A DNA stretch of 64,000 nucleotides, from the NCBI RefSeq assembly GCF_005887635.2, contig NZ_CP040818.1:3502501-3566500 (forward strand), in the 5' to 3' direction. Below the pieces are notes generated by a model, which did no database searches, was not told the origin of the DNA, and worked only from the letters and a program-made list of their open reading frames with translations. Within the stretch, counting starts at the first letter, position 1. Every line of letters starts with the position of its first letter. This DNA is from Paroceanicella profunda. Lineage in GTDB: Bacteria > Pseudomonadota > Alphaproteobacteria > Rhodobacterales > Rhodobacteraceae. Made by a program: the position numbers and the translations under genes. This document shows, piece after piece, positions 24,869-28,968 of this stretch.

Positions 24869-25387
24869 TCAGGCCGCCGCGAGAAACTTCCCCAACCGCG
24901 GCAGCCCGGCCCGCTTCAGGAACGAGCGCAGGTCATCCGTCCATCCGGCCTGAACGCGCATGTCCTCCGCAGCGGATGCGAAATCCGCGCCGGACCGCGC
25001 GAAGCCGAGCAGGAAACTGTCCGGATCGGACGGCATCACCCCGTGCCCGGCGAGACGCCGGCGGGGAAAGTCACGCAGGTTGCGTGTCACCAGAACCCCG
25101 GCTCCGCCCGCCAGGCAGGCGCCGAGCACATGGGTGTCGTTTGGGTCTGGCAGGTCCGGCGATACCGCGTCCGGCACCACGCTGGCCTGCCAGCGCGCCT
25201 CCAGCGCGGCGATCACGCCCCGCGTTGCGGCCTCGGCGGCAGCCCCGTCCCGCGCCATCGCCCGGGCCCATTCCTCCAGAATCCGCTCGGACCAGACCGG
25301 CACGAAATGCCCGCCGCCCGCCGCCACCAGCAACAGCGACCGCGTCGCCGTCGGGTAAAGCACACAGGCATCGAGCACGGCGCGCAT
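24869..25387 (-). CDS. PIN-domain protein
   Basis: A 172-residue protein with a PIN nuclease-like fold: N-terminal MRAVLDACVLYP (first acidic residue), a Glu in WSERILEEWARA, DPNDTHVLGACLAGG with the central acidic pair, and VLVTRNLRDFP. These match VapC-like PIN proteins, but no antitoxin gene lies next to it, and the C-terminus has an extra helical region of about 45 residues. Its ATG overlaps the rRNA methyltransferase stop by one base (TGATG), so it is translated from that message. A role in RNA processing is a reasonable guess, a stand-alone toxin less so. Confidence 0.75.
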   Translation of the reverse strand: MRAVLDACVLYPTATRSLLLVAAGGGHFVPVWSERILEEWARAMARDGAAAEAATRGVIAALEARWQASVVPDAVSPDLPDPNDTHVLGACLAGGAGVLVTRNLRDFPRRRLAGHGVMPSDPDSFLLGFARSGADFASAAEDMRVQAGWTDDLRSFLKRAGLPRLGKFLAAA

Positions 25388-26580
25388 CAGTCCAGCCTCA
25401 GGAAGATCGCCTTGAGGTAGGAGGTCTCCGACAGCGCGACATGTACCGGGTGATCGGGCCCCGGCCCGCCGACATGCAGAATCTGCCCCTGCCGCCCGGC
25501 CCGGGCCACGCCGCGCAGAGAGGCGGCACGGAACCGCTCCAGGTCCGCCGCATGCGAGCAGGAACACAGCACCAGGAAGCCCCCCGGGCTCACCAGCGCC
25601 GCGCCCTGCCGCGCCACCTTCTCATAGGCCCGCAAGCCGGGCTCCAGCGCCGTCTTGGACGGCGCGAAGGCGGGAGGGTCACAGACGACCATGCCGAACT
25701 GCGCGCCTTCCCCGGCCAGCGCCGCCATGGTGTCGAAGGCATCGCCCTTGCGCGTGGCGAACCGGTCGCCCAGCCCCGCGGCCTCCGCGCCCTGCCCGGC
25801 CAGCTCCAGGGCCGCGGCGGAGCCATCCACCGCAAGCGCGGACTCCGCGCCCGCCGCCAGCGCCGCCAGCCCGAACCCGCCGACATGGCTGAACACATCC
25901 AGCACCCGAAGCCCCGGGGCGAGACGCGCGGCGAAGGCATGGTTTGGCCGCTGGTCGAAGAACAGCCCGGTCTTCTGCCCGCCAATCAGGTCCGCCATGT
26001 AGACGGCTCCGTTCATCGGCACGGCAATCGGCGCGTCCACCCGGCCGCGCACGATGTCCATGCGCTCCGACAGGCCCTCCAGGCCGCGCGCGCGCCCCTG
26101 CCCGTTCACCACCACGGTGCTCACCCCGGTCACCGCCTGCAGCGCGCTCACCAAGGGCTCGATGAGCAGATCGGCCCAGGCCGCGTTCGGCTGGATCACC
26201 GCCGCGTCTCCGAACCGGTCGACGATCACACCGGGCAGGCCATCGGCCTCGGCATGCACCAGCCGGTAGAACGGGGCGTCGAACAGGATCTCGCGCAGCG
26301 CAAGCGCCCGGGACAGGCGGGCCGTCAGCCAGGCCTCGTCGATCAGCGCCTGCGGATCGGGGTCGAGATGGCGCAGCACGATGCGCGAACCGGGGTTCAC
26401 CGCCACAGTCGCGATCGGCTCGCGCTCGGCGGATTCGAGCGTGGCGATCGTCCCGGGCAGAATCGCCTTCGTGCGACGGTCCAGCACGACTTCATCGGTA
26501 AAGGACCACGGCGCGCCGGAGGCGGCATGGCGCCGTCCGGGCTTCGGGCGCAGTCGCACGGTAGGTCGGTCGAACACCAT
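25387..26580 (-). CDS. RlmI-like class I rRNA cytosine methyltransferase
   Basis: A 397-residue protein of the RlmI/RsmB-like SAM methyltransferase family (23S rRNA m5C). Parts: N-terminal PUA-like region (residues about 1-75), a linking domain with VDRFGDAAVIQ, and the Rossmann domain with LDVFSHVGGFGLAALAAGA (SAM site), VVCDPPAFAPSK (motif IV) and VLCSCSH. The ATG at 26580 is the family start. The PIN gene overlaps its stop. Whether the target is 23S C1962 as in E. coli is inferred from family only. Confidence 0.88.
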   Translation of the reverse strand: MVFDRPTVRLRPKPGRRHAASGAPWSFTDEVVLDRRTKAILPGTIATLESAEREPIATVAVNPGSRIVLRHLDPDPQALIDEAWLTARLSRALALREILFDAPFYRLVHAEADGLPGVIVDRFGDAAVIQPNAAWADLLIEPLVSALQAVTGVSTVVVNGQGRARGLEGLSERMDIVRGRVDAPIAVPMNGAVYMADLIGGQKTGLFFDQRPNHAFAARLAPGLRVLDVFSHVGGFGLAALAAGAESALAVDGSAAALELAGQGAEAAGLGDRFATRKGDAFDTMAALAGEGAQFGMVVCDPPAFAPSKTALEPGLRAYEKVARQGAALVSPGGFLVLCSCSHAADLERFRAASLRGVARAGRQGQILHVGGPGPDHPVHVALSETSYLKAIFLRLD

Positions 26581-26689: not shown

Positions 26690-26747
26690 AAAAAAAAGGG
26701 CCGTGTCGAACACGGCCCAAGTCTAGGGAGGAACTTTGAAACTCGTA
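26690..26747 (-). terminator. Unit 1: conserved 3' UTR with CCUCCC box and terminator
   Basis: Follows the stop of the 26748-26912 gene. On the minus strand the order is CCTCCC (26731-26726), a short linker, a 9-bp stem (26718-26710 / 26706-26698) with loop TCG, then eight Ts. The segment from the box to the stem is identical in all four units of this array. Confidence 0.85.
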
Positions 26748-26912
26748 TCAGGCGGCCGTCGGGCGATGCATCATCGCGGACAGGGCAGCCCAGGCGGCGG
26801 CGACGCCGCGGCCGGTGGCCTTGAAGCCGGAGCGCAGAACGGCGGCGCGATGGGCGCGGGCGGCGCGCTCGAACTGTGCGATGTCGTCGTGGGTAAGATA
26901 GCTGCTGGTCAT
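26748..26912 (-). CDS. Small Arg/Ala-rich protein, array copy 1
   Basis: A 54-residue basic protein, too short for most gene callers: starts MTSSYLTHDDIAQFERAARA, ends MMHRPTAA. It shares with three neighbours the core AHRAAVLRSGFKATGRG and the C-terminal HRPTAA. It is predicted to be mostly helical, with two Arg-rich faces. I do not recognise a named family; DUF1127 proteins are similar in size and charge, but their usual DIGLSR-type motif is missing. The start is at the ATG 26912 after an AGAGAGAG purine run. It has its own promoter-like sequence and 3' UTR. Confidence 0.8.
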   Translation of the reverse strand: MTSSYLTHDDIAQFERAARAHRAAVLRSGFKATGRGVAAAWAALSAMMHRPTAA

Positions 26913-26973
26913 GATGCTCTCTCTTTCCTCGACCGCGCGAAGGGTGCGTAGCCGTTGCGTTGCGTTGGCATCA

Positions 26974-27001
26974 ACATGCCTCGGAACCGGATTAGTTTGC
27001 A
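26974..27001 (-). promoter_or_regulatory. Unit 1: conserved promoter (TGCAAA-16-GCATGT)
   Basis: Minus strand TGCAAA (27001-26996), 16 bases, GCATGT (26979-26974), then the gene start about 62 bases on. All four units have these two boxes with exactly 16 bases between, preceded by a conserved AATTTTTCGG-type stretch. The spacing and a CAT-containing -10 resemble heat-shock sigma (RpoH) promoters of Rhodobacter. Confidence 0.6.
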
Positions 27002-27068
27002 GCCCGAAAAATTAGGATGCCGACATGCGCAAAACGCAGAGCTCGCGCCACCCCCTTGGAATCAGGCC

Positions 27069-27126
27069 AAAAAAAAGGGCCGTGTCAAACACGGCCCAAG
27101 TCTAGGGAGGAACTTAGAAACGGGTG
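27069..27126 (-). terminator. Unit 2: conserved 3' UTR with CCUCCC box and terminator
   Basis: Box CCTCCC at 27110-27105, stem gggccgtgt / acacggccc within 27077-27097, then eight Ts on the minus strand (27076-27069). Loop is TTG rather than TCG; the rest equals unit 1 except a single base near the stop. Confidence 0.85.
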
Positions 27127-27291
27127 TCAGGCGGCCGTCGGGCGATGCATCATCGCGGACAGGGCGGCCCAGGCGGCGGCGACGCCGCGGCCGGTGGCCT
27201 TGAAGCCGGAGCGCAGAACGGCGGCGCGATGGGCGCGGGCGGCGCGTTCAATGCGGGCGATCTCGTCGTGGGTGCGGAAGCTGCTGGTCAT
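27127..27291 (-). CDS. Small Arg/Ala-rich protein, array copy 2
   Basis: A 54-residue protein, nearly identical to copy 1: it begins MTSSFRTHDEIARIERAARA, and the C-terminal 34 residues are the same. The coding DNA of copies 1 and 2 is identical over more than 100 bases at the 3' end, so they result from a recent duplication or gene conversion. Its promoter and 3' UTR are complete, and no stop or frameshift is present, so both are probably expressed. Confidence 0.8.
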   Translation of the reverse strand: MTSSFRTHDEIARIERAARAHRAAVLRSGFKATGRGVAAAWAALSAMMHRPTAA

Positions 27292-27352
27292 CGTCGTCTC
27301 TCTTTCGTGAACCGTGCGAGCCTGGCGTCGCTGTGGCGTTGCGTTGGCCTCA

Positions 27353-27380
27353 AGATGGCTCGAAGCGACATTAGTTTGCA
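27353..27380 (-). promoter_or_regulatory. Unit 2: conserved promoter (TGCAAA-16-CCATCT)
   Basis: Minus strand TGCAAA (27380-27375), 16 bases, CCATCT (27358-27353), about 62 bases before the copy 2 ATG. The upstream 40 bases (27381-27420) are almost identical to those of unit 1. Confidence 0.6.
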
Positions 27381-27479
27381 GCCCGAAAAATTAGGATGCC
27401 GACATGCGCAAAACGCAAGGCTCAGGCTGTTCTGCGTCCGACTCTCCTGCCAGCCTTCCAGCCGGCCTGCCCTTCGGAC

Positions 27480-27537
27480 AAAAAAATGGGCCGTGTCGAA
27501 CACGGCCCAAGTCTAGGGAGGAACTTTGAAACTCGTA
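27480..27537 (-). terminator. Unit 3: conserved 3' UTR with CCUCCC box and terminator
   Basis: Box CCTCCC at 27521-27516, stem extended by one pair to tgggccgtgt / acacggccca within 27487-27509, then seven Ts (27486-27480). From the stop codon to the stem it is the same as unit 1. Confidence 0.85.
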
Positions 27538-27711
27538 TCAGGCGGCGGTCGGCCGATGCAGGATCGACGTGATGGCGCGCCAGACGGCGGCGAGGCCGCG
27601 GCCCGAGGCCTTGACGCCGGAGCGCAGGACGGCGGCGCGATACGCGCGGGCCTCACGCTCGATGCGGGTGATTTCGTCGTAGGACGGGTAAACGGAGCGG
27701 GTCATGGTCAT
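27538..27711 (-). CDS. Small Arg/Ala-rich protein, array copy 3
   Basis: A 57-residue diverged paralogue: starts MTMTRSVYPSYDEITRIERE and ends SILHRPTAA, with the common core RAAVLRSGVKASGRGLAA. It differs at about 40 percent of positions from copies 1 and 2, yet its 3' UTR is unchanged. Two in-frame ATGs (27711, 27705) are possible starts. A cytoplasmic, positively charged helical protein; RNA binding is plausible but unproved. Confidence 0.8.
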   Translation of the reverse strand: MTMTRSVYPSYDEITRIEREARAYRAAVLRSGVKASGRGLAAVWRAITSILHRPTAA

Positions 27712-27764
27712 GTCTCTTTCCTCATCTGTGTGAGGGGCGTTTCCGGTGTCTTTCGTTGACACCA

Positions 27765-27792
27765 ATATGCGCCCGCCCCGCGGCTTTGTGCA
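27765..27792 (-). promoter_or_regulatory. Unit 3: conserved promoter (TGCACA-16-GCATAT)
   Basis: Minus strand TGCACA (27792-27787), 16 bases, GCATAT (27770-27765), 54 bases before the copy 3 ATG. The upstream element is weaker (AGTTTTATTGC). Confidence 0.55.
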
Positions 27793-27918
27793 GTGCAATA
27801 AAACTGGAAGCCGATATGCATGAATCGCAGGGCTGCAGACGTGAATGCTCAACGAATCCCGGGGCTCTCCTTCTTCGCGCCCGCAACAGCGACAGCCTGT
27901 CGCACCCGGGCGCCGGGC

Positions 27919-27977
27919 AAAAAAAATGGGCCGTGTCAAACACGGCCCAAGTCTAGGGAGGAACTTTGAAACTGGTG
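27919..27977 (-). terminator. Unit 4: conserved 3' UTR with CCUCCC box and terminator
   Basis: Box CCTCCC at 27961-27956, stem tgggccgtgt / acacggccca within 27927-27949, then eight Ts (27926-27919). Identical to unit 3 except the loop and three bases after the stop. Confidence 0.85.
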
Positions 27978-28151: not shown

Positions 28152-28200
28152 GTCTCTCTGTGCTACCGGCCCGAGGGAAGACCCGGTGTCGTTGAGAGCT

Positions 28201-28228
28201 ATATGGCCCGAGCAGATTTAAATTTGCA
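28201..28228 (-). promoter_or_regulatory. Unit 4: conserved promoter (TGCAAA-16-CCATAT)
   Basis: Minus strand TGCAAA (28228-28223), 16 bases, CCATAT (28206-28201), 50 bases before the copy 4 ATG. Closest of the four to an RpoH-type -10 (CCATAT). Confidence 0.6.
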
Positions 28229-28269
28229 GTGCGAAAAATTCGGATGCCGCCATGCATGCGCTGCAAGGC

Positions 28270-28968
28270 TCAGCGGCTCAGCCCCAGGTGCAGCAGGTAG
28301 CGCTTCTCCAGTTGGCGGAAGATCATCACGATGACGAAGGTGAGCGCCATGTACAGCGCCGCCGCCGTCAGGAAGCCTTCATAGGCCACGTAGTAGCGCG
28401 CGCGGAAGGTTTGCGTCACACCGAAGATGTCCTGGATGGTGATCACACCCGCCACCACCGAGCCATGCAGCATGAACACCACCTCGTTGCCGTATTGCGG
28501 CAGGGCGCGGCGCAGCGCCGAGGGGATCAGGACCAGGAAGTCCACCTGCCGGTCCGACAGGCCGAGCGCGCGTGCCGCCTCCACCTCGCCCTTCGGGATG
28601 GTGCTCACCGCGCCGCGGATGATCTCGGTCGCATAGGCCCCGGAGTTCAGCGAGAACACCAGCAGCGCGATCCACCAGGCGTCACGCAGGAAGGGCCAGA
28701 ACAGGCTCTCGCGCACCCAGTCGTATTGCCCCAGCGTCACCCCCAGCCCGTAGTAGAACAGGTAGGTCTGCACCAGCAGCGGCGTGCCCCTGAAGAGATA
28801 GATGTAGAAGCGCAGGCCCCGCGAGGTCCAGTGGCCCCGCGCCAGGGCCATGCCGGCGGGCAGCGCGATGCAGAAGCCTGCGGCGAGCGCCAGCACCACC
28901 AGTTCCAGCGTGGTCACCACCCCGCGCGCGAACAGCTCCCAGTGGTCGAGGACCAGGTCGAACCGCAT
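28270..28968 (-). CDS. Polar amino-acid ABC transporter permease (HisM-like)
   Basis: A 232-residue inner-membrane permease with five hydrophobic segments and the coupling (EAA) loop GEVEAARALGLSDRQVDFLV. FRGTPLLVQTYLFYYG is the signature of HisM/ArtM-type permeases. It overlaps the hisQ-like gene stop by one base. It pairs with the next gene as a heterodimeric channel for basic or polar amino acids. Confidence 0.92.
   Translation of the reverse strand: MRFDLVLDHWELFARGVVTTLELVVLALAAGFCIALPAGMALARGHWTSRGLRFYIYLFRGTPLLVQTYLFYYGLGVTLGQYDWVRESLFWPFLRDAWWIALLVFSLNSGAYATEIIRGAVSTIPKGEVEAARALGLSDRQVDFLVLIPSALRRALPQYGNEVVFMLHGSVVAGVITIQDIFGVTQTFRARYYVAYEGFLTAAALYMALTFVIVMIFRQLEKRYLLHLGLSR

Follow-up and report, generated by a model that had tools for sequence, protein, structure and literature searches.

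The marine bacterium Paroceanicella profunda carries, within the 64,000-nucleotide (nt) stretch of contig NZ_CP040818.1 analysed here (positions 3,502,501 to 3,566,500; called the window in the following), an array of four head-to-tail units on the minus strand. Each unit is made up of a promoter-like element, an open reading frame (ORF) of 54-57 codons and a 3' untranslated region (3' UTR) RNA, in which a CCUCCC box stands before a terminator stem (Table 1). The transcription order is D, C, B, A. All four ORFs match the RSP_7527 family (NCBIfam NF046098) at 37.1-42.4 bits, with a cut-off of 26. Probably, each unit yields an mRNA of about 275 nt that is cut to a trans-acting small RNA (sRNA) directed against Shine-Dalgarno (SD) sequences, an MmgR-type 3' end having been multiplied to four. 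Small-protein genes with a 3' sRNA (UdsC, CcaF1-CcsR) and RNAs with CCUCCC (MmgR, SorY) are known already; an RSP_7527 gene joined to an MmgR-type 3' RNA, repeated four times and kept in two species, looks like a new arrangement. In the papers searched, the literature on RSP_7527 concerned Rhodobacter sphaeroides only (key papers on cuckoo RNA and CcaF1 lay outside this search, and an earlier report there is possible), and neither 'RSP_7527 family protein' nor 'Oceanicella' together with 'small RNA' was mentioned.

The initial annotation had stated that the 3' UTR is more conserved than the coding region and that the same RNA, an anti-SD box with a terminator, is repeated behind each gene, and both statements are borne out. 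From 12 nt past each stop codon the four units have one and the same run, AGTTCCTCCCTAGACTTG; 3' of it follows GGGCCGTGT-loop-ACACGGCCC, a 9-bp GC-rich stem, and then 7-8 T. The coding sequences (CDS) show 67-93% pairwise identity. Between units A and C 122 of 174 coding positions are identical, as against 58 of the first 60 nt of the 3' UTR. An 18-nt core, AGUUCCUCCCUAGACUUG, is the same in eight of eight units, the four here and the four of Oceanicella sp. SM1341. When scanned with cmscan, all four units matched a known sRNA family, MmgR/suhB (RF00519), with E values of 1e-7 to 2.1e-6 in a 2-kb search; two of them lie above the cut-off of 41 bits and the other two 0.1-0.4 bits under it. In a search of the whole window, the two units above the cut-off had E values of 3.4e-6 and 3.9e-5. 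Because of these covariance E values, and because the same 18 nt recur in all four units of SM1341, the likeness of the 3' UTRs is not due to chance.

SM1341 was the single other genome of the genus compared, and also the sole genome found in the search for related loci; a protein search returned nine proteins, every one on the contig of the array or on the SM1341 contig. This sister genome (G244) carries all four units, with order and neighbours unchanged, and the sequence past unit A runs into the methyltransferase gene. Between orthologous units the third codon positions are 62-79% identical and the spacers 68-83% (aligned letters), while the 18-nt core is unchanged, which supports the proposed sRNA. 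The stem supports it as well, since its pairing is kept: in sister unit B GGGCC/GGCCC has become GAGCC/GGCTC, a compensatory change from G-C to A-U with an intact box, and sister unit D has one G-U pair. A box that mutates while the stem is kept had been named beforehand as evidence against such an RNA. Here it is the stem that changed, by compensation and at a single pair, and the box that stayed fixed. Pairing was found in 98% of the cells of the stem and in 23-51% of those in slid controls, a contrast that any stem would show if it was derived from the very sequences compared.

If gene conversion alone kept the 3' ends alike, the box would be the same in all units without selection. Within P. 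profunda the CDS of units A and B are 93% alike, and 99% past the 25th codon (94% in the sister A/B pair), as against 80-82% to the sister orthologues, and the two units look partly gene-converted in both genomes. Likeness among the copies of one genome may therefore overstate selection; the identity between species is unaffected. In the interval 26748-27291 of the window the 3' ORF halves of units A and B are near-identical, which holds for each genome. However, the run is identical across species in all four orthologous pairs, where 21-38% of third positions and 17-32% of the aligned spacer letters are different, and CCTCCCTAGACTTGGGCCG is shared by the free-standing MmgR-like element of the same genome. 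The cross-species comparison led us to reject gene conversion as the sole cause, and we consider concerted evolution alone extremely improbable.

The plan of the units is a further argument for the sRNA. In all four promoter-like elements a -35-like TGCAAA or TGCACA is spaced 17 nt from the -10-like hexamer. Downstream lies a conserved CAACG, the first A of which, 7 nt past the -10-like hexamer, was taken as the predicted start; the predicted transcripts are 277 nt for A and for B, 278 nt for C and 274 nt for D. A longer upstream motif, CGGCATCCNAATTTTTCGNNNTGCAAA, searched with up to 3 mismatches in both Oceanicella-lineage genomes, was found only at the array, at three places per genome, i.e., at three of the four units in each (reversed-pattern control: none). 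With a promoter-like element of its own, equal spacing and an upstream motif restricted to the array, the units have, on consensus evidence, the appearance of four separate small transcription units and not of a single operon. The motif (26996-27022, 27375-27401 and 28223-28249) contains a TTTTTCG-N3-TGCAAA dyad and is possibly a LysR-type site overlapping the -35 element, a resemblance seen by eye; it is not a clear match to the Brucella VtlR motif (PMC12595884). Each RNA of the array lies directly behind its ORF and is not an independent RNA gene, the promoter-like hexamers standing before the ORF (a further promoter inside the ORF was not searched for).

By motif and family match, the nearest relatives of the RNA are the MmgR- and SorY-type RNAs and not CcsR. 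MmgR is described as a 77-nt trans-sRNA with three stem-loops that affects polyhydroxybutyrate (PHB) storage (PMC7143759). The array RNA has UUCCUCCCUAGACUU and a GC-rich terminator stem in common with it, but is the 3' UTR of a gene and lacks the 5' hairpin, which is deleted or reduced in the RF00519 alignments of all four units. SorY (RF02651) is like the array RNA in CCUCCC, GACUU, the GGGCCG stem and the terminator, whereas its linker is UGUUGGACUU instead of UAGACUU, a LysR gene adjoins it and it has its own promoter (PMC6238624); the four units reach 26.5-28.9 bits with its model, far under the cut-off of 111. SorY is reported to limit malate import and to affect takP (PMC5036791, PMC6238624). 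A known target of SorY and the effect of MmgR on PHB storage both speak for a trans-acting role of the array RNA.

MmgR, SorY and UdsC are better comparators than the CcsR RNAs with which the initial annotation had linked the array. As a CcsR/cuckoo (CIN1) locus, the array would consist of genes for a small RNA-binding protein with CcsR-type sRNAs. Its proteins are indeed small and basic (isoelectric points 11.2-12.0) and stand beside an anti-SD RNA that is present fourfold, CcaF1-CcsR1-4 likewise combines a small-protein gene with repeated anti-SD-type RNAs downstream, and DUF1127 genes are associated with CcsR-like RNAs (PMC10253847). However, CcaF1 is a DUF1127 protein and the array proteins are not. 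None of the four had a Pfam match at E 0.1, DUF1127 included, and hhalign found no detectable relation between 20 RSP_7527-type and 7 DUF1127 proteins (probability 0.4%); the four DUF1127 matches in the genome of the array are all away from it. The CcsR locus of the genome taken as R. sphaeroides 2.4.1 (L092) has CCTCCTCCC repeats behind a DUF1127 gene, and the four CcsR RNAs, with their CCUCCUCCC repeats, are co-transcribed with one such gene (PMC10253847). In contrast, each unit of the array has one CCTCCC abutting a terminator of its own, there is one RNA per promoter-like element and terminator, and no repeated CUCCUCCC is found within one precursor. A covariance comparison with the CcsR/cuckoo family had been suggested; the Rfam scan did give a match, to MmgR/suhB, with no cuckoo-named family among the matches. 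Protein family, motif form and transcript plan all speak against kinship to CcsR, which was therefore rejected, and this reading is very unlikely.

The array locus is syntenic with the RSP_7527 locus of R. sphaeroides, which also lies before a methyltransferase gene. There, the 300-nt RSP_7527 message gives UdsC, a 3' UTR sRNA of ~67-70 nt cut by RNase E, overproduction of which lowers the expression of an rpoHII reporter (PMC6238624, PMC8625941, PMC9779115); the predicted site on rpoHII begins two nt from the 5' end of the mRNA (PMC9779115). That the syntenic message is cut in this way argues for the same in the array. Both loci have the protein family, the place before the methyltransferase gene and a 3' UTR RNA ending at a terminator in common, but UdsC/RSP_7527 is a single copy without a CCUCCC box, for which reason UdsC was rejected as the same RNA. 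At the locus that we infer to be RSP_7527 of R. sphaeroides (L037) neither CCTCCC nor CCTCC was present within 200 nt of the stop. Its genome (G094) was taken as strain 2.4.1, because the NF046098 match at 1,289,944 compares with a published RNA 5' end of 1,289,874 and the SorY box at 1,632,683 with a published 5' end of 1,632,642.

Of 244 genomes sampled from the order, 65 have NF046098 genes, mostly a single one. G141 has three, which are scattered, G177 and G198 have two, and both Oceanicella genomes have four. We examined 30 RSP_7527 loci outside the genus, namely those returned of 72 matches (4 being the window's own), and in 14 of them a methyltransferase gene follows on the same strand within 1.5 kb. 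CCTCCC before the terminator was found in none of the 30. In two of them CCTCCC does lie no more than 200 nt from the stop, but in L035 it is situated where the methyltransferase gene starts and in L043 beyond a terminator, and a box behind RSP_7527 genes elsewhere was rejected. Likewise, a supposed box upstream of the G004 gene, with an RF00519 match of 31.2 bits, turned out to be a terminator without box. The array is best read as an expansion at the old RSP_7527/UdsC locus, in which the 3' end is a different one, of MmgR type, and the count of 0/30 favours a gain in Oceanicella over a loss elsewhere.

From the anatomy, conservation, synteny and family matches we derive the following proposal for expression, cleavage, mode of action, targets, dosage and direction of evolutionary change. 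Each unit would be transcribed separately into an RNA of about 274-278 nt and translated into a small basic RSP_7527-family protein. The 3' end of the mRNA, at the intrinsic terminator, would be cut past the stop codon, by RNase E in analogy to UdsC, leaving a stable RNA of ~58-65 nt. The freed RNA would display UUCCUCCCUA largely unpaired, mostly as the loop of an AAGUU/GACUU hairpin, and UUCCUCCCUA would pair with G-rich SD regions of other mRNAs and block their translation. The RNA may be a shortened MmgR-type element without 5' hairpin that became the RSP_7527 3' end in the Oceanicella lineage, and multiplication of gene and RNA to four may have given a higher RNA dosage from four promoters. 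In six of eight short folds the box is the loop of this hairpin, which adjoins the terminator, and in six of eight it is unpaired with a probability of at least 0.77 at every base; together with the RF00519 matches, this supports the proposal. In sister B and C a different fold was preferred to the hairpin.

Alternatively, the box might act in cis, serving the small mRNA that carries it as a site of processing, stability or protein binding, with no free sRNA acting on other mRNAs. The box stands directly before the terminator in all 31 tabulated elements, array and free-standing, the non-array rows of which were selected for having CCTCCC and are uninformative on box conservation, and a GAGGAA in the unit A leader is a possible pairing partner of the box (duplex -14.7). 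However, the leaders of units B-D pair poorly (-5.4, -8.1 and -9.2), the box-GACU-terminator module also occurs, in P. profunda and in other genomes, next to dinB or a LysR gene and apart from any RSP_7527 or DUF1127 gene, and SorY and MmgR are described as trans-acting or as trans-sRNAs (PMC5036791, PMC7143759). We therefore regard a role in cis as unlikely.

As candidate targets of a trans-acting RNA, leaders with AGGGAGGA 3-12 nt before ATG were counted, which gave 36 matches (35 sites) here and 1 in the reversed control, and 45 and 4, respectively, in the sister. The pattern TAGGGAGGA-N3-12-ATG occurs once in the genome of the array (reversed control 0), before a tripartite ATP-independent periplasmic (TRAP) transporter gene of DctM type; in the sister there are three more, one of which is the opposite strand of the array itself (control 2). 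The leader 19-mer of the DctM-type gene, TAGGGAGGAAACGGCCATG, recurs unchanged in the sister, whose first codons are different. Within this leader (G000:C2:255077-255095, L120) TAGGGAGGAA is fully complementary to UUCCUCCCUA, and it lies in a 28-nt stretch that the sister shares without change. Letter identity between the two genomes was also seen for five other AGGGAGGA-to-ATG strings (by string, not by orthology). The duplex of box region and DctM leader reaches -18.4 and the best of 47 long window ORF leaders -12.2; among the AGGGAGGA leaders in 15 fetched loci of the array's genome others reach -19.9. For duplexes of the whole RNA with this leader 51 and 102 of 500 shuffles were as low, which is uninformative. 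In view of the role of SorY in restricting malate import and of its effect on takP, which is part of a TRAP transporter, the DctM leader is a suggestive target, but it is only a lead, because several AGGGAGGA leaders pair as strongly.

A number of observations weigh against the proposal of a trans-acting sRNA from each unit. Since none of the 30 RSP_7527 loci outside the genus has the box before a terminator, the exact unit is supported by two species only. The innermost stem pair is lost in two of eight units (sister A and sister B), and among the eight both sides changed in 1 of 14 pairs, which was matched by 61 of 500 shuffles. In the predicted folds, three of the six box bases of sister unit B are mostly paired (unpaired 0.30-0.46), three box bases of sister unit C are unpaired at 0.60-0.63, and for the box within near-full-length transcripts the unpaired probability is 0.49-0.98. 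MmgR itself is not known to have a direct target (PMC7143759). Finally, the AGGGAGGA leader matches are weak evidence for targets, as strong SDs would give the same.

Elements with CCUCCC and a terminator are very common in the sampled part of the order: CCTCCCT-N1-5-GACT-N0-3-GGCC was found in 261 of 292 sampled genomes (the table contains one family only), mostly with one to three copies per genome, and with a reversed-pattern control of mostly zero, occasionally 1 or 2. P. profunda has the most matches in that table, six. At least three linker types occur, the recurring ones being TAGACT, TGTTGGACT (SorY type) and TGTCAGACT, the last of which possibly marks an unnamed sRNA family. Among the matches listed, no two elements lie less than 10 kb apart, as judged by eye and with the window's own excluded, and tandem repetition is seen in Oceanicella only. 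In the genome of the array dinB has an MmgR-like element (69 bits) at its side (L001 1509-1574, G000:C1:2532310-2532382, minus strand), as it has in other genera at L061 and L116, and a LysR gene has a SorY-like one (L006 1508-1576, G000:C1:2305394-2305469, minus strand; RF00519 31.6 bits, under cut-off). A LysR-type neighbour is present at the R. sphaeroides SorY locus (L117) too. In G198, another genus, two CCTCCCTAGACTTGGGCC elements stand behind a LysR-type gene (L115, box 2459) and behind dinB (L116, box 2582).

In a search of 121 genomes with RF00519, 41 had a match at E 0.001 and 2 a match above the cut-off; 2 of 14 control genomes, one of them Thermus, gave matches. A CCTCCC row is present in 23 of the 29 loci L061-L089 and in none of L063, L076, L080, L081, L085 and L089, and the weak matches therefore include plain terminators. 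The elements compared with the array came from loci L001, L006, L057, L059 and L061-L089 (28 rows), five rows being omitted: L057 and L059 (sister duplicates), L074, L087 and L083 (plus strand). RNAalifold on the 31 mixed elements gave no consensus pair, MAFFT having misaligned the stems, and for the stem comparison the hairpins were parsed by hand.

The array is flanked by an ATP-binding cassette (ABC) transporter permease gene and an S-adenosylmethionine (SAM)-dependent methyltransferase gene. For the protein of ORF D AlphaFold predicts a single long helix, with a mean predicted local distance difference test score of 69 (weak model).

Table 1. Features of the array and its flanking genes (window positions; starts predicted from consensus only)
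Feature	Position	Strand	Remarks
Flanking gene upstream	28270..28968	-	ABC transporter permease (PF00528), beside family 3 solute-binding protein gene (PF00497)
Unit D promoter region	28200..28249	-	motif CGGCATCCGAATTTTTCGCACTGCAAA 28249-28223; -35-like TGCAAA; 17-nt spacer; -10-like CATATA 28205-28200
Unit D predicted start	28193	-	consensus only
Unit D ORF, 57 amino acids	27978..28151	-	RSP_7527 family (NF046098), 42.4 bits, cut-off 26
Unit D 3' UTR RNA	27920..27977	-	CCUCCC box 27961-27956; terminator stem 27948-27928; RF00519 41.5 bits
Unit C promoter region	27764..27813	-	diverged motif copy; -35-like TGCACA; 17-nt spacer; -10-like CATATT 27769-27764
Unit C predicted start	27757	-	consensus only
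Unit C ORF, 57 amino acids	27538..27711	-	RSP_7527 family, 40.6 bits
Unit C 3' UTR RNA	27480..27537	-	box 27521-27516; stem 27508-27488; RF00519 40.6 bits, slightly below cut-off
Unit B promoter region	27352..27401	-	motif 27401-27375; -10-like CATCTT 27357-27352
Unit B predicted start	27345	-	consensus only
Unit B ORF, 54 amino acids	27127..27291	-	RSP_7527 family, 38.4 bits
Unit B 3' UTR RNA	27069..27126	-	box 27110-27105; stem 27097-27077; RF00519 45.7 bits
Unit A promoter region	26973..27022	-	motif 27022-26996; -10-like CATGTT 26978-26973
Unit A predicted start	26966	-	consensus only
Unit A ORF, 54 amino acids	26748..26912	-	RSP_7527 family, 37.1 bits
Unit A 3' UTR RNA	26690..26747	-	box 26731-26726; stem 26718-26698; RF00519 40.9 bits, slightly below cut-off
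Flanking gene downstream	25387..26577	-	SAM-dependent methyltransferase with PUA-like domain, start codon uncertain

The array unites in one gene an RSP_7527 small-protein gene, a relative of which yields UdsC in R. sphaeroides, and an anti-SD RNA of the MmgR/SorY kind. This suggests that the box-plus-terminator module can become the 3' end of various small-protein genes and multiply with them, and the array offers a natural way to test if anti-SD RNAs and small basic proteins go together. A bolder idea, which we hold to be unlikely, is that the CCUCCC RNA is the most strongly selected part and the ORF its nest, that a mobile module took the place of the ancestral UdsC-type 3' end of RSP_7527 genes in Oceanicella, and that the RSP_7527 protein, like CcaF1 with CcsR, acts on the RNA of its own gene, the four promoter-protein-sRNA units together being a self-contained, dosage-tuned riboregulator array. 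If this were true, it would be a second origin of the pairing of a small protein with an anti-SD sRNA, from a family without detectable relation to DUF1127, and would suggest that the pairing itself is functional.

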